Positions 51,385 to 64,000 of a stretch of 64,000 nt of DNA are shown here, piece by piece. Made by a program: the position numbers and the translations under genes. The DNA is from Geminicoccus roseus DSM 18922 (GTDB lineage Bacteria; Pseudomonadota; Alphaproteobacteria; Geminicoccales; Geminicoccaceae): assembly GCF_000427665.1 (NCBI RefSeq), contig NZ_KE386572.1:3186196-3250195 (forward strand), given 5' to 3'. The notes under the pieces are model-generated. The model searched no databases and was not told the origin of the DNA. It saw only the letters and a list, made by a program, of their open reading frames with translations. Within the stretch, counting starts at the first letter, position 1; the number at the start of each line of letters is the position of its first letter.

Positions 51385-52260
51385 ATGGCAATCATTGAAG
51401 GCACGATCGGCGACGACCGGCTTGCCGGCACCGAAGAGGCGGACACCATCCTGGGCAGGGCCGGCAGCGACCTGGTCCAGGGCTGGGGAGGCGATGACAC
51501 GCTGGGCCTGGGCGACGGGAACGACCGAGCCTTCGGCGGGTCCGGCAACGACACGCTGATGGGCGGCGAGGGCGACGACCAGCTGGATGGCGAGGACGGC
51601 GACGATTCGCTGAGCGGCGGTGCCGGCAACGACCTCCTGTCCGGCGGCGCCGGCGCCGACCGGCTGCAGGGCCATGCCGGTGACGACGACCTGCGCGGCG
51701 GCCTGGGCAACGATCACCTGAACGGCGGCGACGGCGACGACTATCTCGATGCCGGCGGCGGCAGCAACATCCTGTATGGCGGGACGGGCAACGACACCCT
51801 GTCGATCTACAGCGACGACCGTGTCTCGGCCGGCGAGGGCGACGACCTGGTGCAGGTCGGCGGCTACGACAGCCTGAACGCCCGGATCTCGCTGGGGGCG
51901 GGGGCCGACACCATCACCATGGAGTATTCCGGCGGTAGCCAGGAATTTGCCGGCGGCGGGCGGACAGAGGTCAGCGACTTCCGGCATGGCGAGGACCGGA
52001 TCGGCGACCTGACCTTCATCCTCACCGACGACGGCGGCACCGAGCGGATCGGCTTCGACGCGCTGGACAGCAACGCGGACGGCAGCATCGATGGGCTGGA
52101 TGCCGGGGTGACGGTCGAGGGTGGCGGGCTGACGATCGACCTGGCGCCGGCGCTGGTGGAGCTGGCGTCGGAGGGACGGCCAGGCTTCGAGGTGGCCGAT
52201 CCAATGATCCTCCGGCTGGCGGGCATCACGGCGCTTTCGGGCGCCAACTTCGTGGGATGA
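51385..52260 (+). CDS. RTX calcium-binding protein, 291 aa, type I secretion candidate
   Basis: A 291-aa protein with about a dozen GGxGxDxLx nonapeptides at residues 30-145 (LSGGAGNDLLSGGAGADRLQGHAGDDDLRG). A C-terminal region follows that carries an EF-hand-like loop, DSNADGSIDGLD. It ends with RLAGITALSGANFVG, similar to the end of the next gene. There is no N-terminal signal; export by a type I system using the C-terminus is the normal route. No type I secretion genes are in the window. The ATG has GGAG upstream. Confidence 0.85.
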   Translation: MAIIEGTIGDDRLAGTEEADTILGRAGSDLVQGWGGDDTLGLGDGNDRAFGGSGNDTLMGGEGDDQLDGEDGDDSLSGGAGNDLLSGGAGADRLQGHAGDDDLRGGLGNDHLNGGDGDDYLDAGGGSNILYGGTGNDTLSIYSDDRVSAGEGDDLVQVGGYDSLNARISLGAGADTITMEYSGGSQEFAGGGRTEVSDFRHGEDRIGDLTFILTDDGGTERIGFDALDSNADGSIDGLDAGVTVEGGGLTIDLAPALVELASEGRPGFEVADPMILRLAGITALSGANFVG

Positions 52261-52428: not shown

Positions 52429-55400
52429 ATGGCGGAAATCCTGGGCACTGCCGGCGCGGATGTCATCATGCCGACGGCATCCGATCCTGCGCTCAGGACG
52501 ACTGGCGGGGATGACGTTGTCCATGGACTGGGTGGCGACGACTTTGTCGATGGCGGCGATGGCGACGATGCTCTGGACGGCGGCGACGGTGATGATGTGC
52601 TGTATGGTGGGGCTGGGGACGACTCCGCGAGCTACGCCGAAGCAACAAGCGGGGTGACGGTCGACCTTGCGGTGCCGGCGGCGCAGGAGACGGGCGCTGC
52701 TGGGCGGGACAGGTTGGTCAGCGTCGAGGGGCTGATCGGGTCGAGCTATAACGACACGCTCGCCGGCGACGCCAGCCTGAACAGGTTGGTGGGCGGCGCT
52801 GGAGACGATGTGTTGAGCGGGAATGGCGGCAACGACGAGTTGGATGGAGGTCTTGGCACGGACACAGCCACCTATATGTCCGCTCCAACTGCAGTGATAG
52901 TTGATCTGAGATTGAATACTACCCAAGAGACTGGTGGTGCTGGGCGGAACAAGCTGACCAGCATTGAAGGGCTGATTGGCTCTGTTTACCATGACGTGCT
53001 CTATGGCGATGGTAAAAGTAATTCTCTGCAGGGTGATGCGGGCGATGACGTGCTCAGTGGCGGCGCCGGCAGAGATGTATTGGACGGTGGTGCTGGCAGC
53101 GACACGCTTGATGGAGGTAGTGGCTTTGATACCGCAACCTATGCGCTCGCTCCAGGCGCGGTGACGGTTGATCTGTCGCTGGCTGGTGTTCAGGCGACTG
53201 GTGGTGCGGGCGATGACACGCTGATCAGCATTGAACGGCTGATCGGCTCGGATTTCGCTGACGTACTGAAGGGTGACGCCGGAACCGAAGCGTTGCTCGG
53301 CGGCTCTGGCGACGATGTGCTGGAAGGTGGGGCTGGCGACGACGCGATGGACGGTGGTGCGGGTAGCGACATCGTCTCCTATGCGAGCGCGACCTCGGGT
53401 ATAACAGTCGACCTGGCGTTGACCGGGATCGTGCAGAGGACCGGGGGCGCCGGCGAGGACCGGGTGTTCAGCATTGAAGGACTGGTCGGTTCGGACTTCG
53501 ACGATACGCTCAAGGGTAGCAGCAGCGCCAATTCGCTCAGGGGCGGCGCTGGCGACGACGTGTTGGACGGTGGTGCCGGCAATGACGTGCTCGATGGTGG
53601 CGATGGCACCGACACGGCGAGCTATGCCGGGGCGATCTCCGGCGTGACGGTGGAACTGGGCCTGGCGACTGTGCAGGCGACCGGTGGGGCGGGCACCGAC
53701 ACGCTGTTGAACGTCGAGCGGCTGGTCGGCTCGGATTTCGCTGACGTGCTGAAGGGAAGCGTCGACAGTGATGTGCTGGTAGGCGGTGATGGTGATGATG
53801 TGCTGGAAGGTGGGGCCGGCAACGATACTATGGACGGTGGTGCGGGCAGCGACATCGTTTCCTATGCGAGTGCGACTTCGAGTGTCACAGTTGATCTGGC
53901 GTTGACCGGGATCGTGCAGAGGACCGGGGGCGCCGGCGAGGACCGGGTGTTCAGCATCGAAGGACTGGTCGGTTCGGACTTCGACGATACGCTCAAGGGT
54001 AGCAGCGGCACTGATTTGTTGAGCGGCAGCGCCGGAGGGGATCTTCTGCAGGGTGATGCGGGCGATGACGTGCTCAGTGGCGGCGCCGGCAGAGATGTAT
54101 TGGACGGTGGTGCTGGCAGCGACACGCTTGATGGAGGTAGTGGCTTTGATACCGCAACCTATGCGCTCGCTCCAGGCGCGGTGACGGTTGATCTGTCGCT
54201 GGCTGGTGTTCAGGCGACTGGTGGTGCGGGCGATGACACGCTGATCAGCATTGAACGGCTGATCGGCTCGGATTTCGCTGACGTACTGAAGGGTGACGCC
54301 GGAACCGAAGCGTTGCTCGGCGGCTCTGGCGACGATGTGCTGGAAGGTGGGGCTGGCGACGACGCGATGGACGGTGGTGCGGGTAGCGACATCGTCTCCT
54401 ATGCGAGCGCGACCTCGGGTATAACAGTCGACCTGGCGTTGACCGGGATCGTGCAGAGGACCGGGGGCGCCGGCGAGGACCGGGTGTTCAGCATTGAAGG
54501 ACTGGTCGGTTCGGACTTCGACGATACGCTCAAGGGTAGCAGCAGCGCCAATTCGCTCAGGGGCGGCGCTGGCGACGACGTGTTGGACGGTGGTACCGGC
54601 AATGACGTGCTCGATGGTGGCGATGGCACCGACACGGCGAGCTATGCCGGGGCGATCTCCGGCGTGACGGTGGAACTGGGCCTGGCGACTGCGCAGGCGA
54701 CCGGTGGGGCGGGCACCGACACGCTGTTGAACGTCGAGCGGCTGGTCGGCTCCGGCTTTGCCGACATGCTGACGGGTAGCGCTGGCGACGATCAGTTGCT
54801 GGGCGGGTCGGGCGACGACGTGCTGGATGGTGGCGCTGGAGCCGACTTTCTGAACGGTGGCGATGGCACCGACACGGCGAGCTATGCCGGGGCGATCTCC
54901 GGCGTGACGGTGGAACTGGGCCTGGCGACTGCGCAGGCGACCGGTGGGGCGGGCACCGACACGCTGTTGAACGTCGAGCGGCTGGTCGGCTCCGGCTTTG
55001 CCGACATGCTGACGGGTAGCGCTGGCGACGATGTGCTGCGCGGCGAGGCGGGTGACGACGTGCTGGACGGTGGTGCCGGCAACGATGTGCTGGACGGTGG
55101 CGATGGTATCGACACGGCGAGCTATGCCGGCGCGATCTCCGGCGTGACGGTGGAACTGGGCTTGGCGACTGCGCAGGCGACCGGTGGGGCGGGCACCGAC
55201 ACGCTGTTGAACGTCGAGCGGCTGGTCGGCTCCGGCTTTGCCGACATGCTGACGGGTAGCGCTGGCGACGATGTGCTGCGTGGCGAGGCGGGTGACGACG
55301 TGCTGGACGGTGGTGCCGGCAACGATGTGCTGGACGGTGGCGATGGCACCGACACGGCGAGCTATGCCGGGGCGATCTCCGGCGTGACGGTGGAACTGGG

Positions 55401-56427
55401 CCTGGCGACTGCGCAGGCGACCGGTGGGGCGGGCACCGACACGCTGTTGAACGTCGAGCGGCTGGTCGGCTCCGGCTTTGCCGACATGCTGACGGGTAGC
55501 GCTGGCGACGATCAGTTGCTGGGCGGGTCGGGCGACGACGTGCTGGATGGTGGCGCTGGAGCCGACTTTCTGAACGGGAGCCAGGATCGCGACCTGATCT
55601 GGGGCGACGGCGGCAATGACGCTTTGCATGGTGAGCAGGGTGAGGATGAACTCCACGGAGGCGCGGGGAACGACACACTTGATGGTGGTGAGGGTTCCGA
55701 CCTGCTGATGGGCGATGCCGGTGATGATGTGCTGACGGGCGGCGCTGGCTCGGACACCCTTGAAGGCGGCGATGGTTACGACACCGCCGACTATTCCGGC
55801 GAGGGGGGCGGCATTCTGGCATGGCTGGTGAATGGTGCGGGAGGTGCTGCGGATGATACCCTGGCGACCATCGAGCGGGTGGTCGGCACCTCGGGCGACG
55901 ACGAGTTCTATGCCTTCGACCTGTTCAACGAGTCCGGCCAGTACACCATCAGCACCGATGCGGTCGCCTTCGATGGGCAGGACGGCAACGACCAGCTTGT
56001 CGGCGGGAACGGCGATGACCACTTGTCCGGCGGCGAGGGGGACGACGTCATCCAGGGCGGGGCTGGCGATGATGACATCGAAACCGGCGCAGGCTTCGAT
56101 ATCCTCTTTGCCAACCTCGACGTCGCCAGCGGCGAGTTCATCGGCCAGGACATCATTCAGGACTTCGACCTGGCGAGCGACGGGCTGAGCCTCAGCGGCT
56201 TTACCCAGCAGGGCCTGCAGGTCTATGCCTCCGAAATGTTTGCGCGGCTCGACACCAACCAGGATCTGGTCGTGACCAGCGCCGATGACGCCGTCTCCCT
56301 CTCGACCGCAAACGAAGCCGATGCCCTCGTCATCGATGTCGGCCAGACGCTCGGCCATGGAAGCGGCCTGCACACGGTGACGCTGGTCGGCGTGCAGGCG
56401 CTCTTTTCCGACAACTTCTACGGCTGA
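52429..56427 (+). CDS. Giant RTX protein, 1332 aa, with about a dozen repeated 80-residue units
   Basis: The protein has no N-terminal signal. Nearly the whole chain consists of units joining GGxGxD calcium-binding nonapeptides (DDVLDGGAGNDVLDGGDGTD) to a spacer of the type TASYAGAISGVTVELGLATA, then GGAGTDTLLNVERLVGSGFAD. After residue 1050 the units vary, and the C-terminus has QDIIQDFDLASDGLSLSGF, an EF-hand-like loop DTNQDLVVTSADD and the terminal TLVGVQALFSDNFYG, a likely type I secretion signal. Function is probably structural or adhesive at the cell surface, which is an inference. Codons in the middle (53020-54100) are slightly less GC-rich than in the last third. Confidence 0.85.
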   Translation: MAEILGTAGADVIMPTASDPALRTTGGDDVVHGLGGDDFVDGGDGDDALDGGDGDDVLYGGAGDDSASYAEATSGVTVDLAVPAAQETGAAGRDRLVSVEGLIGSSYNDTLAGDASLNRLVGGAGDDVLSGNGGNDELDGGLGTDTATYMSAPTAVIVDLRLNTTQETGGAGRNKLTSIEGLIGSVYHDVLYGDGKSNSLQGDAGDDVLSGGAGRDVLDGGAGSDTLDGGSGFDTATYALAPGAVTVDLSLAGVQATGGAGDDTLISIERLIGSDFADVLKGDAGTEALLGGSGDDVLEGGAGDDAMDGGAGSDIVSYASATSGITVDLALTGIVQRTGGAGEDRVFSIEGLVGSDFDDTLKGSSSANSLRGGAGDDVLDGGAGNDVLDGGDGTDTASYAGAISGVTVELGLATVQATGGAGTDTLLNVERLVGSDFADVLKGSVDSDVLVGGDGDDVLEGGAGNDTMDGGAGSDIVSYASATSSVTVDLALTGIVQRTGGAGEDRVFSIEGLVGSDFDDTLKGSSGTDLLSGSAGGDLLQGDAGDDVLSGGAGRDVLDGGAGSDTLDGGSGFDTATYALAPGAVTVDLSLAGVQATGGAGDDTLISIERLIGSDFADVLKGDAGTEALLGGSGDDVLEGGAGDDAMDGGAGSDIVSYASATSGITVDLALTGIVQRTGGAGEDRVFSIEGLVGSDFDDTLKGSSSANSLRGGAGDDVLDGGTGNDVLDGGDGTDTASYAGAISGVTVELGLATAQATGGAGTDTLLNVERLVGSGFADMLTGSAGDDQLLGGSGDDVLDGGAGADFLNGGDGTDTASYAGAISGVTVELGLATAQATGGAGTDTLLNVERLVGSGFADMLTGSAGDDVLRGEAGDDVLDGGAGNDVLDGGDGIDTASYAGAISGVTVELGLATAQATGGAGTDTLLNVERLVGSGFADMLTGSAGDDVLRGEAGDDVLDGGAGNDVLDGGDGTDTASYAGAISGVTVELGLATAQATGGAGTDTLLNVERLVGSGFADMLTGSAGDDQLLGGSGDDVLDGGAGADFLNGSQDRDLIWGDGGNDALHGEQGEDELHGGAGNDTLDGGEGSDLLMGDAGDDVLTGGAGSDTLEGGDGYDTADYSGEGGGILAWLVNGAGGAADDTLATIERVVGTSGDDEFYAFDLFNESGQYTISTDAVAFDGQDGNDQLVGGNGDDHLSGGEGDDVIQGGAGDDDIETGAGFDILFANLDVASGEFIGQDIIQDFDLASDGLSLSGFTQQGLQVYASEMFARLDTNQDLVVTSADDAVSLSTANEADALVIDVGQTLGHGSGLHTVTLVGVQALFSDNFYG
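53032..54752 (+). repeat. Two near-identical 700-bp blocks, 1020 bases apart, inside the giant RTX gene
   Basis: Bases about 53032-53732 recur at 54052-54752 with two differences that I could see (53574 G versus A, and 53672 T versus C). The start (GGTGATGCGGGCGATGACG) and the point of divergence after CTGGTCGGCTC are sharp. The block is in frame. Confidence 0.9.
54630..55590 (+). repeat. Four tandem 240-bp units in the giant RTX gene
   Basis: The segment starting GGCGTGACGGTGGAACTGGG occurs at 54661, 54901, 55141 and 55381, exactly 240 bases apart, with almost no changes between units. Each unit encodes 80 residues. Confidence 0.92.
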
Positions 56428-58267: not shown

Positions 58268-59119
58268 TCAGGTAGCTTTGGGCGTCTGGAGGGGAGGGCG
58301 GTTGACGATCCGGCTGACGCTGCTCTCGTGCAGGTCGAAGGCGGCGGCAACCCGGCGCATGGAAAAGGCGCCGGTGGCATAGGCGGCTCTGATGGCTTCA
58401 TTGCGGGCACAGGGCAGGCGGGTGAAGCCGGACAGATCCGGCGCGAGGGGCCGGCGCTGGGTGAAAGGAATGGCGGGGTCGGTTGAGGCCGCACCGATCT
58501 CCTTTTGCATCGCCGCGATCCACTCGGGCTTTCCCAGCCAGATCTGCCCTACCAAATCCCGCCACACATAGGGACCGACCCGGCGGACGAAGGCGGCATA
58601 GAGCTTGGCCGCCTTGTCCGGCGCCGGATGGAAGCGTTGCAGCGTCTCGTCGATGACGAGCCAGTCCGGACGCTCTGCCCGTCCGGCCGTGACGCGGGCG
58701 GAACTCCAGGACCAGTCGAATGGCGTCCGCACCATCCGCGCGCCGACGGGATTTCGAACGACATAACGGACCAGCTCCAGAAAGTGCGATTCCTTTTCGA
58801 CCAGGACCGCCTTGTAGCGGCCCTGCAGGACGTGGCCGACGCGGCGATGACGGCGGTTCCAGGCCTGGGTGTAGATGCCGTTCAGGTCGCGCATGCCGCG
58901 CGCCAAGTTCGGCTCCGGTGTCTCGACCAGCAAATGGTAGTGGTTGGTCATCAAGCACCACGCGTGCAGGCGCCAACCGCGGCGCACGACCGTCGCCGCC
59001 AGCGTCGCCACCCAGTGCTGCCGATCCTCGTCATCATGAACGATGGCGGCCCGCGCATTGCCGCGGGCGGTGACGTGGTAGAAGGCGCCGGGATACTCCA
59101 GGCGAAGCGGGCGGGCCAT
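58268..59119 (-). CDS. REP-associated tyrosine transposase (RAYT, Y1 family)
   Basis: A 283-aa protein starting MARPLRLEYPGAFYHVTARG. It has the metal-binding HxH-type motif in CLMTNHYHLLVETPEPNLARGMRDLNG, the QGRYKAVLVEKESHFLELVRYVVRNPV stretch with the catalytic Tyr region of IS200/RAYT enzymes, and a C-terminal helix-turn-helix (MRRVAAAFDLHESSVSRIV). RAYTs are single-copy domesticated transposases linked to REP palindromes; short repeated motifs lie just downstream. Confidence 0.9.
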   Translation of the reverse strand: MARPLRLEYPGAFYHVTARGNARAAIVHDDEDRQHWVATLAATVVRRGWRLHAWCLMTNHYHLLVETPEPNLARGMRDLNGIYTQAWNRRHRRVGHVLQGRYKAVLVEKESHFLELVRYVVRNPVGARMVRTPFDWSWSSARVTAGRAERPDWLVIDETLQRFHPAPDKAAKLYAAFVRRVGPYVWRDLVGQIWLGKPEWIAAMQKEIGAASTDPAIPFTQRRPLAPDLSGFTRLPCARNEAIRAAYATGAFSMRRVAAAFDLHESSVSRIVNRPPLQTPKAT

Positions 59120-59243: not shown

Positions 59244-59576
59244 ATGGCCGGAACGCAAGACCTGCCCCCCGACCTGGAAGAGTTGATCGGCCGCGTGGTC
59301 GAGTATTTCGAGCCGCAGGCTGTGATCCTGTTCGGCAGCCATGGGCGGGGCGAGGCAGGACCGGACAGTGACATCGACCTCCTGGTGATCGTCGACGACG
59401 ATGCGCCTGTGGAAAAGCGGCGGCTCTCGGCCGGACGGAAGGCTCGGCGAGGCTGGTACGGCATGGCGGACATCGTGCCGGTCACCCGAAGCCGATATGA
59501 GGAGGGGCGTCGCGTCATTGGCTCGCTCGCCGAGATCGCTTCGGCGGAAGGACGCAGGGTCTATGGCCGGGCCTGA
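59244..59576 (+). CDS. mntA: MNT-type minimal nucleotidyltransferase, antitoxin of a HEPN/MNT pair
   Basis: A 110-aa protein with VVEYFEPQAVILFGSHGRGEAGPDSDIDLLVIVDDD, the G-S-x(n)-D-x-D motif of MNT proteins. In characterised pairs this enzyme AMPylates a tyrosine of the HEPN toxin. Its first codons (MAGTQDLPPDLEEL) overlap one copy of the REP-like repeat. It overlaps the HEPN gene by 14 bases, with the antitoxin first. Confidence 0.88.
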   Translation: MAGTQDLPPDLEELIGRVVEYFEPQAVILFGSHGRGEAGPDSDIDLLVIVDDDAPVEKRRLSAGRKARRGWYGMADIVPVTRSRYEEGRRVIGSLAEIASAEGRRVYGRA

Positions 59577-59991
59577 ACGGCGCTTGCAAGCTGAGGAAGG
59601 CCAGCGATGGCTGCAGCACGCGGAACGGGGCATCGCCGCGGCCGAGCGGGCAATTGCCATGCCGCCGGCGCTTCCCGACATCGCCGCCTATCATTGCCAG
59701 CAGGCCGTCGAGAAGCTGCTGAAGGGCCTACTGGTGGCCGGCGCGATCCGCCCGCGCAAGACCCACGACCTCGACTTTCTGGCGGACGAGGTCGGGTCTG
59801 TCTGGCCGGCACTGGCGCCTCTGGCTGAACCGCTGCGGCGCTGTACCACCTGGGGGTTTGCATACCGCTACCCACTGCCAGAGGAGGAGCCCGCGCCGAC
59901 GGTTGCCGAGATCCGGGCGACACTTGCGCAGATTGAGGATTTGCGGCGAGCGGTGGTCGGCCTGGTCGAGGGGGCAAAAAAGAGCCGTTAG
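59563..59991 (+). CDS. hepT: HEPN-domain toxin of a HEPN/MNT pair
   Basis: A 142-aa alpha-helical protein. The HEPN RNase-type motif R-x4-H is seen as RPRKTH in AGAIRPRKTHDLDFLADEVG, with YHCQQAVEKLLKGLLV before it. The ATG at 59563 (MAGPERRLQAEEGQRWLQHAERG) overlaps the MNT gene. The last 60 or so bases are duplicated downstream. Confidence 0.87.
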   Translation: MAGPERRLQAEEGQRWLQHAERGIAAAERAIAMPPALPDIAAYHCQQAVEKLLKGLLVAGAIRPRKTHDLDFLADEVGSVWPALAPLAEPLRRCTTWGFAYRYPLPEEEPAPTVAEIRATLAQIEDLRRAVVGLVEGAKKSR

Positions 59992-60179
59992 AACCCTCCC
60001 GAAGGTGGAAGGTGCTTGAACGAAAGACCTGACCCCGACTCCGCGGGTGCGTCACGCGCATTGCCGCGGGCGCAGATTGAGGATTTGCAGCGAGCGGTGG
60101 TCGGCCTGGTCGAGGGGCAAAAAAGAGCCGTTAGAACCCTCCCGAAGGTGGAAGGTGTTTGAACGCAAGACCTGACCCC
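59926..60179 (+). repeat. Direct duplication of the hepT 3' end and downstream sequence
   Basis: About 110 bases starting GCGCAGATTGAGGATTTG (59926-60036) recur at 60070-60179 with a few changes, one of them a missing G that shifts the frame. Each copy ends with the REP-like GAACG-AAGACCTGACCCC motif. A 33-base spacer lies between them. Confidence 0.9.
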
Positions 60180-60252
60180 AAGTCCTCTCGCGACGACCAC
60201 GAAAATCGCTTCCCCGTCGCCCCCCGGGAACAGAACCTTAAACCGGCTTTAA

Positions 60253-61491
60253 CTAACTTCGCTCCAACGCCATACCAGAGGAGCCCGCTTCAGTCATTCC
60301 GATTAGCGGATCAACGCTATTATAGATCGCGACGGTTTGTTTCGCAATCGAGCCCCATTCGTAATCTTTAAGCAGATATGTCCAATCTACATAGGGTGCT
60401 CCTTCTATATCATTAGCAAATACTTGCTTTAGACGGCGTGCGATCGCAGAAGGGGAACCAGTCTCTACATAACAGTGACTGGGCAACCCGACATTTCGAT
60501 TAGCATCTATGTCACTCGCTACCACCGGCCGACAGTACGACATCGCTTCAAGCAACGCTATAGGAAGGCCTTCATGGCTCGAAGGAAGAACGAACACACC
60601 GGCGTGACTGAAAATCTCCGCCAGAGGCAGTCCATTTAAGAAGCCGGTCATTACCACACCTGGGGTTGCCATCGCAGCTTCTGATACTCTCTGGCTATAG
60701 GAACTCTTATGATCCGCTGCGCCAACCAAAACTAACCGCAAATCAGGTCTTCCAAGCTCTCTAAATGCATCAATTAAGTCCATATGACGTTTCTCAGGAA
60801 CCAACCGGCTAACGTTCAGGATATACTTCCCAGGCTCTAATCCGAATTGGTCGAGCGCTCTAGAGGTTGGTACCCACCGACCTGATTCAACACCATTCGG
60901 GATATATGTGAAGGCTTTTTGATATTTGGTAGTGAGCTCAGCGGCCAATGAACGCGACACTGCAATACGGGCATTAGCGGTATAAGCTGCCGACATCTCA
61001 CCAATTCGCAAGATGAACTTGGCCAAACGGCCCCATTTCTCACGCTTATAATCTTCGCCATGATGAGTTGCGACGACGCTCAAACCCAGGAGCTTCGCCA
61101 GAGGTGTAACAAGCGAAGGCCCGATGGCATGTATATGTAAGATGCGAGGTCGAATAACCGCAGCGTAAAGAACCGCGAGAATAGAATGAAACAGCGCCTC
61201 TGTACTCGGACCCTGGAAAGAAGGCAACGAAGTCACTTTAAATGAATTAGTCATTATCGGAAGATCAACCGAACTATAAGGCTTGCGCACCACAACATTT
61301 GTGTCAACTCCGAGCCTACTGATCTCCTGCGCCAAATTGCCTACATGAGCTTCGACACCACCCTGTCCACCACCGATACTTCTAAGGCCGATCATCATAA
61401 CGTCGGGCCGTGTCCGCTGAAAAAGGGATTGTAGCGTCCTCCGCGTCCCCAAGCCTGATAAATTCCGCACCGTCGTGTTCCTTTCAGCCAT
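60253..61491 (-). CDS. Glycosyltransferase family 4, surface polysaccharide
   Basis: The product is about 412 aa with a GT-B fold. The N-terminal part has MMIGLRSIGGGQGGVEAHVGNLAQEI, and LSVVATHHGEDYKREKWGR sits in the middle. The C-terminal donor site has ILNVSRLVPEKRHMDLIDAF, then HAGVFVLPSSHEGLPIALLEAMSYCRPVVASDI with the E-x7-E motif. The ATG at 61491 is preferred over a GTG at 61506. The gene is visibly AT-richer than the DNA to the left and belongs to the low-GC block that runs to the window end. Acceptor and linkage cannot be predicted. Confidence 0.88.
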   Translation of the reverse strand: MAERNTTVRNLSGLGTRRTLQSLFQRTRPDVMMIGLRSIGGGQGGVEAHVGNLAQEISRLGVDTNVVVRKPYSSVDLPIMTNSFKVTSLPSFQGPSTEALFHSILAVLYAAVIRPRILHIHAIGPSLVTPLAKLLGLSVVATHHGEDYKREKWGRLAKFILRIGEMSAAYTANARIAVSRSLAAELTTKYQKAFTYIPNGVESGRWVPTSRALDQFGLEPGKYILNVSRLVPEKRHMDLIDAFRELGRPDLRLVLVGAADHKSSYSQRVSEAAMATPGVVMTGFLNGLPLAEIFSHAGVFVLPSSHEGLPIALLEAMSYCRPVVASDIDANRNVGLPSHCYVETGSPSAIARRLKQVFANDIEGAPYVDWTYLLKDYEWGSIAKQTVAIYNSVDPLIGMTEAGSSGMALERS

Positions 61492-61705
61492 CGAGGTAAG
61501 CCACACAGATGTTGCTCACGCGCCCCGAAAACTTCTATTCAACTTCCGTTCTTAAATAATACGCTAACGATCGAAAAACCTGCGTGCTCAATATTTCGAA
61601 GACATCACATGCGACGATGGTATCTGCTCCATTTTCAATTTGCCTAGATACCGAAAGGGTAGGGCAGAGAGAGCGCAATGACATACCCGCAATCAGATGA
61701 TGCAT

Positions 61706-62776
61706 CTATTGAGGACGGCATAACACAAACTGGAGATTACCTCCGAGATACCTAGAATGGGGCGGTACATCTTTGATGATATCTTGAATAATCTCCCACT
61801 CAGGTGAGCCAACGTCAAGAAAAGGAACCAGCACGTGCAGAGGAACAAGTCGCTTCGGAGGACTTTGCTCCACCTCTGCTGAGGAGGCGATTGGTCCGCC
61901 ACTGAGATCTGCGATGGACTCGATGATCGCATTAGTTAAGCGACGTATAGCGGAGCTTTGCCAAGGAAGGACTGGATCTGGATGAAGGAGCATAAGACCT
62001 GCCAAAGCCTCAGCTGCGAATATATGATAATGAAGCGCAAGATGTCCTCTTTGCATCTCCAGAGCGAGAAGCCCATCAGAGCTTATATCAGAAAGACCTG
62101 CGTCACGAACCTCCCTCGCATAATCGACCAGGGCCTCATCCTCGATAACCAACCCTACTGCGAGTACGGCAATACCATTCCAAAAATAGTGATTGTTCCT
62201 GCCAGCGACCTCGACCCCACGGGCCTGGAATTCCATTAGAGCAGTTGCATTGCGTTGGAACCACTCTCGAATCTCGACTGACTCCTCTATTTCATCGATC
62301 TCAGGCTGAGCCTTCAAGTAGGCAATCGCAACCTGCAAAATGATCCAACTCCTATAAAACTGATCGGTAGGCGAGTCCGCGCCCTCGAGTGCGTGATTGC
62401 GTGCCGAGTGCACAATTGCACGTGCAAGGCACGCCGCTAGATGTGACTTCTCCTCACGCGGTGCAGCACGATAGTCGTCTGCGATCGAAATGATCTTACG
62501 TGCGGGCACATCGATCGCTTCTCGAAGTGGGCGTTGGCGGTCAACCTCGCGCGGATCATCGGTAGCATGAGTAGGATCCGAACGGTCAAACCGCGGCTGT
62601 AGATTCAGGTACTGTGGCATAGCTGCGACCTCGCCACACGTCACAGACGCCCCTGATATGCCCGCGCCCTTTGATTGAACCACGAAAACATCAAACACCA
62701 ACACATTCAACACCAAGAGTCCGAACAAACTTATGATCAGAATATGTGAACGCCATTTGTATGCTGAGTTAGCCAT
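61706..62776 (-). CDS. Membrane-anchored alginate-lyase-like protein (PL5/AlgL superfamily)
   Basis: A 356-aa protein with one N-terminal membrane helix (about residues 11-33) followed by an (alpha/alpha) toroid-type helical domain. EVAGRNNHYFWNGIAVLAVGLV matches the catalytic N-N-H-x-Y-W region of AlgL, and LALEMQRGHLALHYHIFAAEALAGLMLL matches the E-x-x-R-x-x-x-A-L-x-Y-H stretch with the catalytic Tyr/His/Arg. Elsewhere it is divergent. The substrate need not be alginate; a uronic acid polymer made by the same low-GC cluster is a reasonable guess. Such lyases often act in the periplasm during polymer export. Confidence 0.7.
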   Translation of the reverse strand: MANSAYKWRSHILIISLFGLLVLNVLVFDVFVVQSKGAGISGASVTCGEVAAMPQYLNLQPRFDRSDPTHATDDPREVDRQRPLREAIDVPARKIISIADDYRAAPREEKSHLAACLARAIVHSARNHALEGADSPTDQFYRSWIILQVAIAYLKAQPEIDEIEESVEIREWFQRNATALMEFQARGVEVAGRNNHYFWNGIAVLAVGLVIEDEALVDYAREVRDAGLSDISSDGLLALEMQRGHLALHYHIFAAEALAGLMLLHPDPVLPWQSSAIRRLTNAIIESIADLSGGPIASSAEVEQSPPKRLVPLHVLVPFLDVGSPEWEIIQDIIKDVPPHSRYLGGNLQFVLCRPQ

Positions 62777-62832
62777 ACTCGAATAGCTCTCGATGCAAAT
62801 AAATTACCATCTGTTCTTCTGACCGCCTCTCG

Positions 62833-63846
62833 CTAACGTAAAAGCTCAAAATGCTCATGCGCCGCGACATGGGCAGGAGCCACCACTCCATCAAATCGAA
62901 CATGCTGAACCTCGCAATCCAGCCGAAATCCAGTCACGTCCTGTACCCTCTGCCGTATCAAGTAAACAAGCCGCAAAACATCGAAAGATGTCGCACCTCC
63001 GTTGTTGACAATAAAGTTGGCGTGCTGAGTTGAAATTTGCGCACCTCCCTCCCGAAGCCCTTTGAAACCAATGCGTTCAATGATAGCGCCTGGTGCTCCG
63101 ACGGAGGAATACATCGTCGGGTCAGACAAGAAAGTTGATCCTCCATTCGGTAAATTCTTCGGGAAACGGGTCCTCCTACTCCTCAATATGTTAATCATAT
63201 CGCGTCGAATGATACTTGGATCGGCCGGAGTGAGTTCGAGTTGAACCTCAACGACCGCAAGACGCTGAAACTGTAGCGATGACTTGCGATAAGAAAAATT
63301 ACAGTCATCGCGGCTCAACGTCATATCTTCACCGTTGAAAGTTACGCACTGTACGCGCAGGACGTTGTTGCCAATTCCCAAGCGCTGGCTGCCTCCATTC
63401 ATCAGTACTAGACCTCCTAAGGTCCCCGGGATGCCAACGGCGTGCTCAAGGCCAGAAAGCCCTTCCTGCGCTGACCGACGGGCAAGATAGGGCATCCAGA
63501 CGCCCGCTTGGGCAACCATAGTGGACCCGGACGTGCGCACGGAAGACATCGATCGAGAGATTCTTAAGATAAGTCCGTTGAAGCCGCGCGTGTCGAACAG
63601 GACATTAGAACTATCACCCATAATGAAAACCGGTTCACTTCGCGACCGCATTAGGCGGAAGACGTTACTGATATCAGACGAGCTTGCCGCGTCTACGACA
63701 CACCATGCATTACCTCCGATCTTCCACCGGGAGATCTGAGATAGGCTGACATTCTTGTGGATACGACCCTCAAGCGTTTCCTCAAGCGGAGCTATTACTT
63801 CCCTCAAGAAACTGTCGGTGATAGGGAACCATTGCTGGGAACTCAC
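62833..63846 (-). CDS. murB: UDP-N-acetylenolpyruvoylglucosamine reductase (MurB), low-GC copy
   Basis: A 337-aa flavoprotein. The FAD-binding domain has SRWKIGGNAWCVVDA, PVFIMGDSSNVLFDTRGFNGLILRI and GLEHAVGIPGTLGGLVLMNGG. The C-terminal MurB domain has PNGGSTFLSDP, where most MurBs read G-S-x-F-K-N-P, then QHANFIVNNGGATSFDVLRLVYLIRQRV and LDCEVQHV with the conserved Glu. It reduces UDP-GlcNAc-enolpyruvate to UDP-MurNAc. The start is a GTG overlapping the murA stop. Low GC and the polysaccharide context suggest it is not the housekeeping dcw-cluster copy. Confidence 0.87.
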   Translation of the reverse strand: MSSQQWFPITDSFLREVIAPLEETLEGRIHKNVSLSQISRWKIGGNAWCVVDAASSSDISNVFRLMRSRSEPVFIMGDSSNVLFDTRGFNGLILRISRSMSSVRTSGSTMVAQAGVWMPYLARRSAQEGLSGLEHAVGIPGTLGGLVLMNGGSQRLGIGNNVLRVQCVTFNGEDMTLSRDDCNFSYRKSSLQFQRLAVVEVQLELTPADPSIIRRDMINILRSRRTRFPKNLPNGGSTFLSDPTMYSSVGAPGAIIERIGFKGLREGGAQISTQHANFIVNNGGATSFDVLRLVYLIRQRVQDVTGFRLDCEVQHVRFDGVVAPAHVAAHEHFELLR

Positions 63847-64000
63847 CGCGCGTTCTCGTTTTCGTTCTCGATATTGATGTCCGCGCCAAGCGCCTTGAGT
63901 TTCCGCTCCAAGTCATTATAGCCACGAAGCGCCATATGAACACCGTTAACAGTGGAAATACCGTCTGCGCACAGCGCTGCGATCACCGCCGCCATGCTCC
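63843..64000 (-). CDS. murA: UDP-N-acetylglucosamine 1-carboxyvinyltransferase (MurA), C-terminal fragment
   Basis: Only the last 51 or so residues are inside the window; the rest lies beyond 64000. The reading SMAAVIAALCADGISTVNGV, then HMALRGYNDLERKLKALGADI, is the C-terminus of MurA/EPSP-synthase-type enzymes. It transfers enolpyruvate from PEP to UDP-GlcNAc. The stop overlaps the GTG of murB, so the two form an operon. Confidence 0.85.
   Translation of the reverse strand, partial: SMAAVIAALCADGISTVNGVHMALRGYNDLERKLKALGADINIENENENAR

Follow-up and report, generated by a model that had tools for sequence, protein, structure and literature searches.

A divergent murA-murB pair in a Wzx/Wzy polysaccharide locus of Geminicoccus roseus, predicted to supply a lactyl-ether sugar nucleotide

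The end of a 64,000-nucleotide stretch of the Geminicoccus roseus DSM 18922 genome (the whole of which is called here the window) carries a coupled pair of murA and murB paralogues that, judging from sequence comparisons, most probably (probability about 0.8) serves to provide a Wzx/Wzy surface polysaccharide with its own source of a lactyl-ether (1-carboxyethyl) sugar nucleotide. The family to which it belongs occurs sporadically in many unrelated bacteria and has spread horizontally, and related pairs probably make the acidic "lactyl" sugars of bacterial slimes and capsules. In the proposed pathway, the divergent MurA would use PEP to place an enolpyruvyl group on a hydroxyl of a UDP-sugar, and the paired MurB would reduce this group to a lactyl ether, yielding UDP-MurNAc or, more likely in our opinion, the lactyl derivative of another UDP-sugar. 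WcaJ would start a lipid-linked repeat, a neighboring glycosyltransferase, here probably the GT2 enzyme (L002:5227-6357), would add the lactyl sugar to it, Wzx and Wzy would flip and polymerize the repeats, and a PL5 lyase would clip the polymer in the periplasm. The observations behind this proposal are the gene set, the second copies in the genome, phylogeny, recurrence, gene order, and retained catalytic residues, from which we infer the enzyme activities, which sugar is involved, which transferase uses this sugar, and what the lyase does.

The initial annotation of the window had described a coupled murA-murB pair on one strand with an AlgL-like protein and a GT4 enzyme, in a segment of shared low base composition. 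All four genes were indeed found there with Pfam scores above the curated cut-offs (Table 1), and the EPSP_synthase and MurB_C scores exclude chance as the source of the murA and murB assignments. The murA stop codon and the murB start overlap by 4 bases, and the window end truncates murA; the full gene spans 63843-65168 when the window numbering is extended (L002:1039-2364). Past position 64000 the polysaccharide genes continue, giving the island order wcaJ–GT2–wzy–wzx–murA–murB–PL5–GT4. Island genes have a GC content of 48-53% and a GC3 of 47-54%, versus a GC content of 68% in window positions 1-60000. The initiating sugar transferase WcaJ (TIGR03023, 432.3; cut-off 410.75), Wzx (PF01943, 34.2; cut-off 28.2), the polymerase (Wzy_C, 75; cut-off 31.7), and the GT2 enzyme (72.1; cut-off 23.3) were all recognized; with initiating transferase, flippase, polymerase, and glycosyltransferases present, this is a Wzx/Wzy polysaccharide locus. 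A genome of the same genus retains wcaJ followed by a different polysaccharide cassette that includes a PS_pyruv_trans gene. Such polysaccharide pyruvyl transferases (CsaB type, PF04230) likewise add an acidic, PEP-derived decoration to polysaccharides, but they belong to a family unrelated to MurA and MurB and form ketals rather than lactyl ethers on UDP-sugars.

Table 1. Island genes within the window and their Pfam profile scores
Feature	Position	Strand	Evidence
GT4 glycosyltransferase, final island gene	60253..61506	-	Glyco_trans_1_4 86.9 bits, Glyco_transf_4 63.5 bits; GC 49.8%
PL5 (AlgL-like) polysaccharide lyase, accessory	61706..62776	-	Alginate_lyase 69.8 bits, cut-off 22.2
murB paralogue, polysaccharide-locus subfamily (predicted UDP-enolpyruvyl-sugar reductase)	62833..63846	-	MurB_C 87.8 bits, FAD_binding_4 64.7 bits
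murA paralogue, 3' end in window	63843..64000	-	EPSP_synthase (PF00275) 171.5 bits, cut-off 22.8

Both proteins share fold, Pfam families, and catalytic residues with housekeeping MurA and MurB. The AlphaFold2 model of the island MurA has a mean pLDDT of 92.9, and its top PDB matches are all MurA; its sequence falls under the cut-off of the NCBIfam equivalog TIGR01072 (320.9 bits; cut-off 392.7) and passes the broader subfamily NF006873 (334.7; cut-off 297). The island MurB passes TIGR00179 (172.2; cut-off 144.5) and lies just below the cut-off of NF010480 (255.6; cut-off 259). The MurA catalytic residues, which we take to be K22, R91, C115, R120, D305, and R397 in E. coli numbering, are conserved in the two clades described below wherever an alignment row covers the column, and the catalytic Arg/Ser/Glu of MurB is present in 76 of 76 aligned rows. 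NikO, the UMP enolpyruvyl transferase of nikkomycin synthesis, is another MurA-fold enzyme diverted from peptidoglycan to a different UDP/UMP substrate, and its appearance among the PDB matches raises the idea that the island enzyme serves a small-molecule natural product. This we regard as very improbable, since NikO is much more distant than MurA (126 versus 211 bits; fold-match ranks 44-45; 25-26% identity) and works in a natural-product pathway with no MurB-polysaccharide context, whereas the genes surrounding the island murA are of the Wzx/Wzy type.

As the initial annotation had supposed, housekeeping copies lie elsewhere in the genome. A second MurB, 32% identical to that of the island, is encoded at C5:2057923, and in addition to the island murA there are two EPSP-family genes, one being the housekeeping MurA (L007) and the other presumably AroA, since the MurA profile gives no match to it. 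The same profile scores the island MurA at 860 bits and the housekeeping enzyme at 278. The island pair as sole murA and murB of the genome is therefore ruled out. Exactly two MurA, one polysaccharide-type (that is, of the island family) and one housekeeping, were found in 25 of 25 other genomes tested, and two MurB in 6 of 6.

We then consider the neighborhoods of 81 related loci (80 from genome contigs and one more genome). Polysaccharide genes lie within 1.5 kb of the polysaccharide-type murA in 72/81 loci and within 8 kb in 80/81, and murB in 53/81 and 71/81, respectively, whereas none of 30 housekeeping murA controls had murB or polysaccharide genes within 1.5 kb; the neighborhood profiles were derived from the same loci that they scored, which favors matches. 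The common order is murA–(wzx)–murB–glycosyltransferase, with wzx interleaved in 26 of the 73 loci having both genes; in 52 of 67 loci the next recognized gene other than wzx encodes a GT2 or GT4b enzyme on the same strand (this gene-order count excludes L130 and L132). A Qingshengfaniella plasmid carries just a stand-alone murA-murB-GT2 triplet, its pair belonging to clade II of the two described below. MurB was absent from the stretch examined in 10 of 83 loci, where a Bacteroidota-type MurB profile also found none. Our own operon, with lyase and GT4 genes after murB and the GT2 gene upstream, departs from the common order, which counts against our preferred explanation, as do the loci without MurB and the rarity of the family.

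This recurrence, together with the polysaccharide genes past the window end and the housekeeping copies elsewhere, supports the earlier suggestion of an acquired pair serving a surface polysaccharide rather than peptidoglycan. Gram-positive bacteria have two MurA, and the pair could similarly be a redundant peptidoglycan pair merely located in a polysaccharide island, as the identical enzyme families and the match to a murA subfamily (NF006873) would allow; we judge this improbable given the polysaccharide genes and interleaved wzx just described and the separation of the MurA clades from housekeeping enzymes. Moreover, tblastn searches with MurC, MurD, MurF, FtsW, and Ddl gave 0 matches at 1e-5 in 85 loci, and neither our locus nor its relatives are peptidoglycan gene clusters.

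The family is rare: sampling turned it up in 1 of 398 Pseudomonadota genomes and in 1 of 395 genomes of a Bacteroidota class, each time the genome on which the sample was centered. Cultured environmental carriers include Microbacterium sp. RU1D, Luteimonas sp. BDR2-5, and Alteromonas lipotrueae. A 33-row profile (A3) discriminated it from other MurA; a two-row profile (A1) at 1e-75 matched 347 of the 398 genomes of the phylum and could not single it out. Four matches in genus g12 (G019, G020, G021, and G023; 36-37%) were rejected as members because they scored 207-214 bits, less than the 258 bits that this query gave for G196.

In a MurA tree of 109 rows (3 of 112 were excluded as shorter than 380 residues), clade I, clade II, and the housekeeping enzymes were each separated by one branch with an SH-aLRT of 100, and the polysaccharide-type MurA did not group with housekeeping MurA. 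In the MurB tree, from which rows below 230 residues were excluded, lineages partnering clade I and clade II were intermixed. Besides their separate clades and their coupling in polysaccharide loci devoid of Mur ligases, the island-type pairs differ from housekeeping MurA-MurB by an insertion following the catalytic Ser of MurB and by altered pocket loops in MurA. The housekeeping loop FENRF.H is replaced clade-wide by DYRYP.R or DLRFPGR..Y, an Arg is fixed at the position of a housekeeping Ile/Val, Arg343 (own numbering) occurs in 33 of 33 rows of the A3 MurA set, and a Lys directly follows the catalytic Cys in most polysaccharide-type sequences. The altered loops are those that we take to be sugar-facing in E. 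coli MurA. Because they have changed clade-wide though the catalytic residues are retained, the acceptor sugar may be one other than GlcNAc.

These features bear on the proposal that the pair makes UDP-MurNAc. From their chemistry, the two enzymes would be expected to form a lactyl ether on a UDP-sugar of some kind, but MurNAc as the product is less well favored. We give slightly less than even odds to the enzymes of clade I and clade II each using a UDP-sugar of its own, distinct from UDP-GlcNAc. One candidate is a hexuronic acid, since 3-O-lactyl-glucuronic acid is on record in Alteromonas vent polysaccharides; three Alteromonas loci fall in clade I. Such substrates would suit the pocket changes and the added basic residues, a PL5 lyase would suit a uronic-acid polymer, and the pairing of both MurA clades with intermixed MurB lineages looks as if MurA fixes the acceptor. 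On the other hand, our own MurA and those closest to it have Pro in place of the Lys after the catalytic Cys, just 21 of the 81 loci have a UDP-glucose dehydrogenase gene within 8 kb, and the sugar-contact residues are presumed ones.

Somewhat less probable, in our view, is the reading closest to that of the initial annotation, in which the two enzymes convert UDP-GlcNAc to ordinary UDP-MurNAc and this dedicated extra flux puts MurNAc itself into the polysaccharide. The MurA fold and catalytic residues are compatible with this, as is our locus, which has no other nucleotide-sugar gene among the profiles scanned, and MurNAc is on record in the capsule of Vibrio vulnificus ATCC 27562 and the lipooligosaccharide of Psychrobacter arcticus. 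However, only 3 of 105 genomes of Psychrobacter (the genus of one related locus, L112) have a polysaccharide-type MurA, and P. arcticus seems to produce MurNAc without one. The clade-wide replacement of the loops, with Arg fixed for Ile/Val, also argues against it, and a divergent paralogue would be superfluous for UDP-MurNAc because the housekeeping MurA-MurB already supply it.

The lyase had been thought to trim the polymer. Its best PDB match is a polysaccharide lyase (7fhz/7fhu; the 7fhu series is a Stenotrophomonas-type lyase of broad polysaccharide specificity), with which it shares Pfam family and catalytic motifs: NNHYFW and RG..ALHYH align, and the Asn-His, Arg, and Tyr set, presumably catalytic in PL5, is present. 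Unlike PL5 alginate lyases, it scores below every NCBIfam alginate-lyase cut-off (best, NF001469, 132.1 versus 366). An N-terminal hydrophobic stretch suggests that it is probably periplasmic. Trimming may thus stand as a local, accessory role; a conserved partnership with murA-murB is ruled out, with no tblastn match to this PL5 at 1e-6 in the 81 other loci. Overall, the underlying observation of the initial annotation was confirmed and its interpretation partly supported.

Taking the loci together, we tentatively propose, at a little under an even chance, that a so far undescribed, horizontally moved, cross-phylum cassette, murA-(wzx)-murB-GT2/GT4, could be the general route to lactyl-ether sugars of bacterial surface polysaccharides, its two MurA clades with altered pockets taking different non-GlcNAc UDP-sugars, so that the first two peptidoglycan steps would have been copied and re-aimed to non-muramic lactyl sugars. 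If right, this would provide a sequence marker predicting lactyl-ether sugars from genomes, tie the two clades to testable substrates, and reveal the re-use of peptidoglycan enzymes outside peptidoglycan in many phyla. Fosfomycin would also be predicted to inhibit the polysaccharide MurA step, since its target Cys is retained.

Lactyl-ether sugars (MurNAc, isomuramic acid, Man4Lac, GlcA3Lac, and Glc4Lac) represent the chemistry expected of MurA and MurB acting on a UDP-sugar, and such sugars have been reported in capsules, O-antigens, and marine exopolysaccharides. We found no genes named for the lactyl-ether sugars of polysaccharides in the accessible parts of the open-access literature, in agreement with the initial annotation, whose author knew of no described system with this gene set. 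The available text of PMC8657804 holds nothing bearing on the murA-murB/lactyl-sugar question, and the sole open-access match bringing murA, murB, wzx, and wzy together is, in the part available, a Pediococcus gene list (PMC12492903). Separately, an extra murA of Bradyrhizobium, BRADO6639, is on record.

The initial annotation had described a coupled murA-murB pair lying with a lyase-like protein and a GT4 gene on one strand and in one low-GC class, and this description held: the murA stop and murB start overlap by four bases, and the GC content of the island genes is 48-53% and their GC3 is near 50%. Past the window end, the locus continues on the same strand with wzx, wzy, GT2 and wcaJ genes. 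The murA gene counts 441 codons from a TTG, and its true start may be an ATG four codons later. In contrast to the AT-richer island genes, wcaJ has 68% GC (GC3 90%), only its final ~150 bases being AT-rich.

Features of the island, its flank and the matching slot of genome G004 (window, G000:C5:3186196-3250195; L002, continuation past the window end)
Feature	Position	Extended window	Strand	Remark
Glycine-aspartate-rich repeat ORF, shorter	window 51385-52260			
Glycine-aspartate-rich repeat ORF, 1332 codons	window 52429-56427		+	
IS200-like transposase ORF	window 58268-59119			adjoins MNT/HEPN ORFs
Nucleotidyltransferase (MNT) ORF overlapping HEPN-domain ORF	window 59244-59991		+	
GT4	window 60253-61506		-	right end of window
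PL5/AlgL-like protein	window 61706-62776		-	
murB	window 62833-63846		-	
murA	L002:1039-2364		-	upstream of murB; cut by window end, whole in continuation
wzx	L002:2571-3851	65375-66655	as murA	
wzy	L002:3968-5230	66772-68034	as murA	
GT2	L002:5227-6357	68031-69161	as murA	
wcaJ	L002:6447-7997	69251-70801	as murA	
Polysaccharide pyruvyl transferase	L144:3729-4919			G004, downstream of wcaJ

G004, the sole same-genus genome turned up by an order-level search, has a wcaJ 78% identical to that of G. roseus and a syntenic gene upstream of it. DNA similarity ends at window-equivalent position 69354, GC falls at the same point, and G004 continues with a different polysaccharide gene set (two GT4, the pyruvyl transferase, a beta-helix pectate-lyase-like protein, a GDSL hydrolase and an acyltransferase). 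Thus, the locus downstream of wcaJ behaves like a serotype slot, and in each of the two genomes it includes an enzyme for acid decoration together with a protein resembling lyases. The G004 pyruvyl transferase represents another PEP-derived acid decoration in the matching slot.

Among 385 sampled genomes of the class, one other, G196, has a strong MurA relative (38%), with murA followed directly by murB within a Wza-Wzc-GMD-Wzx locus (genes named by sequence and Pfam of gene clusters, Wzx by Pfam). A profile built from these two MurA was used to search a contig database, and the best 80 of 370 confirmed relatives were taken as loci. Among these, clade I (42 sequences including the G. roseus protein, 45-67% identical to it) and clade II (40 including G196, 56-63% identical to the latter) each formed one side of a branch in a 109-row tree, as did housekeeping MurA (SH-aLRT 100). 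Clade I hosts belong to Pseudomonadota, Bacteroidota, Actinomycetota, Verrucomicrobiota, Acidobacteriota, Cyanobacteriota and two candidate phyla; the G. roseus MurA is nearest to those of Microbacterium and Amnibacterium, which means that island-type MurA has moved across phyla. Its occurrence is sporadic, at 1/398 sampled Pseudomonadota and 1/395 in a Bacteroidota class (only the centre genome each time), and 3 of 105 Psychrobacter genomes.

Housekeeping copies of both genes, for which the initial annotation had proposed a search, do exist in G. roseus. Three PF00275 matches exceed the cut-off: the island MurA, the housekeeping MurA (L007; motif GGCAIGTRPIDLH, scoring 278 bits against the two-row profile) and a third lacking a match to the MurA profile, presumably AroA. 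The one other MurB match (C5:2057923, 32% identity) lies in a stretch where MurF, MurD, FtsW, MurC and Ddl were recognised by eye. Each of 25 genomes tested, drawn from those behind the 80 loci, has exactly two MurA, an island-type one scoring 579-655 bits and a housekeeping one scoring 252-349 bits; two MurB were found in 6/6 genomes tested.

The ORFs of all loci were then clustered, representatives named by Pfam and the cluster profiles used for neighbourhood counts. Within 1.5 kb of island-type MurA, MurB occurred in 53/81 loci and Wzx, a glycosyltransferase, an initiating transferase or Wza/Wzc in 72/81; within 8 kb, the counts rose to 71 and 80. Building the profiles from the same loci favours these counts, and with the same profiles none of 30 housekeeping murA controls (29 sampled loci and that of G. 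roseus) had MurB or polysaccharide genes within 1.5 kb. MurC, MurD, MurF, FtsW and Ddl had no match in 85 loci. In the 73 loci with both genes, G. roseus included, murA led directly to murB in 42, wzx intervened in 26 and the order was reversed in 5. In the 67 loci with enough sequence beyond, the next recognised non-Wzx gene was on the same strand and of the GT2 type in 26 and of the GT4b type in another 26; the GT4b cluster is only weakly matched by Pfam (its G196 member has no match). The best hint that the neighbouring transferase uses the MurA-MurB product comes from a Qingshengfaniella plasmid, where murA-murB-GT2 stands alone, flanked by proline and arabinonate genes. The retrieved stretch of ten loci with divergent MurA (L063, L077, L084, L089, L109, L110, L122, L124, L127 and L128) contained no MurB; there, either reduction falls to the housekeeping MurB or the product keeps its enolpyruvyl group.

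Sulfate-activation-like genes (PAPS_reduct domain, CysN-like, CysC-like and inositol-phosphatase family, not all in every locus; CysN and CysC by eye) recur beside Bacteroidota loci L071, L093, L094, L097, L105, L108, L116 and L123, suggesting that their polymers are also sulfated. An asparagine-synthase-like amidotransferase (cluster 20), present in L084, L093, L097, L116 and L127, could amidate a lactyl or uronic carboxyl group.

The MurA catalytic residues (K22, R91, C115, R120, D305 and R397 in E. coli numbering) are retained in both clades, and the MurB Arg, Ser and Glu in 76/76 rows. AlphaFold2 gave a confident MurA fold (pLDDT 92.9), whose closest solved structures were MurA and then NikO, with AroA far behind. 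While catalytic residues are common to all, island-type MurA differs from the housekeeping enzyme in what are presumably its sugar-facing loops: E.IFENR.MH is replaced clade-wide by D.RYP.R (clade I) or DLRFPGRY.Y (clade II), TDMQAQ by SD.QP in many, and YH.DRGY by M.LRGY or WQ..RGY. In the G. roseus MurA and seven near relatives (L049-L055), the loop that follows the catalytic Cys is extended by additional residues. Among the rows inspected, MurB of Pseudomonadota and Actinomycetota loci has an insertion of ~5 residues after the catalytic Ser, absent from the G. roseus housekeeping MurB and from Bacteroidota-type MurB (also found in Psychrobacter L112). MurB lineages are paired with either MurA clade, which suggests that MurA selects the sugar and MurB is tolerant.

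It is likely (probability about 0.8) that the pair is dedicated to supplying a lactyl sugar for a surface polysaccharide. Of the initial reading, the use of the pair for such a polymer is thus likely, while UDP-MurNAc, which it named beside the enolpyruvyl precursor, becomes one candidate product. With catalytic residues kept and loops replaced, it is plausible, at slightly less than even odds, that the sugar modified is other than GlcNAc; synthesis of MurNAc itself for the polymer is possible but somewhat less likely. In published accounts, MurNAc occurs in the Vibrio vulnificus ATCC 27562 capsule (PMC7247339) and Psychrobacter arcticus lipooligosaccharide (PMC4515632), 3-O-lactyl-glucuronic acid in Alteromonas HYD657 and 1644 (PMC2901825), lactyl mannose in Salinivibrio and others (PMC8466920), lactyl rhamnose and lactyl mannose in Rhodococcus equi capsules (PMC12786566), and lactyl glucose in Shigella and isomuramic acid in Proteus (PMC10609480); the relevant passages name no gene for the lactyl sugars. 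In keeping with the initial remark that no such system was described, the open-access literature searched gave no paper describing a murA-murB pair within a polysaccharide locus. The pair is therefore a case of known enzyme families in a recurrent role without prior description in that literature.

In the proposed pathway, MurA would join PEP to a UDP-sugar, MurB would reduce the enolpyruvyl-UDP-sugar to a lactyl ether, and the GT2 of the locus would transfer the lactyl sugar onto a lipid-linked repeat, to be flipped and polymerised. Since the locus has WcaJ and two transferases, the repeat would comprise about three sugars. The PL5 lyase, which lies outside the recurrent murA-murB module, begins with a hydrophobic stretch and carries its family's catalytic motifs. 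Cleavage would be expected beside a uronic acid, so that the polymer probably contains one.

Adjoining the left edge of the island, ~116 bases are tandemly duplicated over the 3' end of the HEPN gene (window 59926-60185; matching stretches of 72 nt, 94% identical, and of 55 nt, 95% identical, at a spacing of 143-144). The overlapping MNT and HEPN ORFs are arranged like HEPN-MNT toxin-antitoxin pairs, and the product of the 1332-codon ORF resembles RTX-type calcium-binding repeat proteins.
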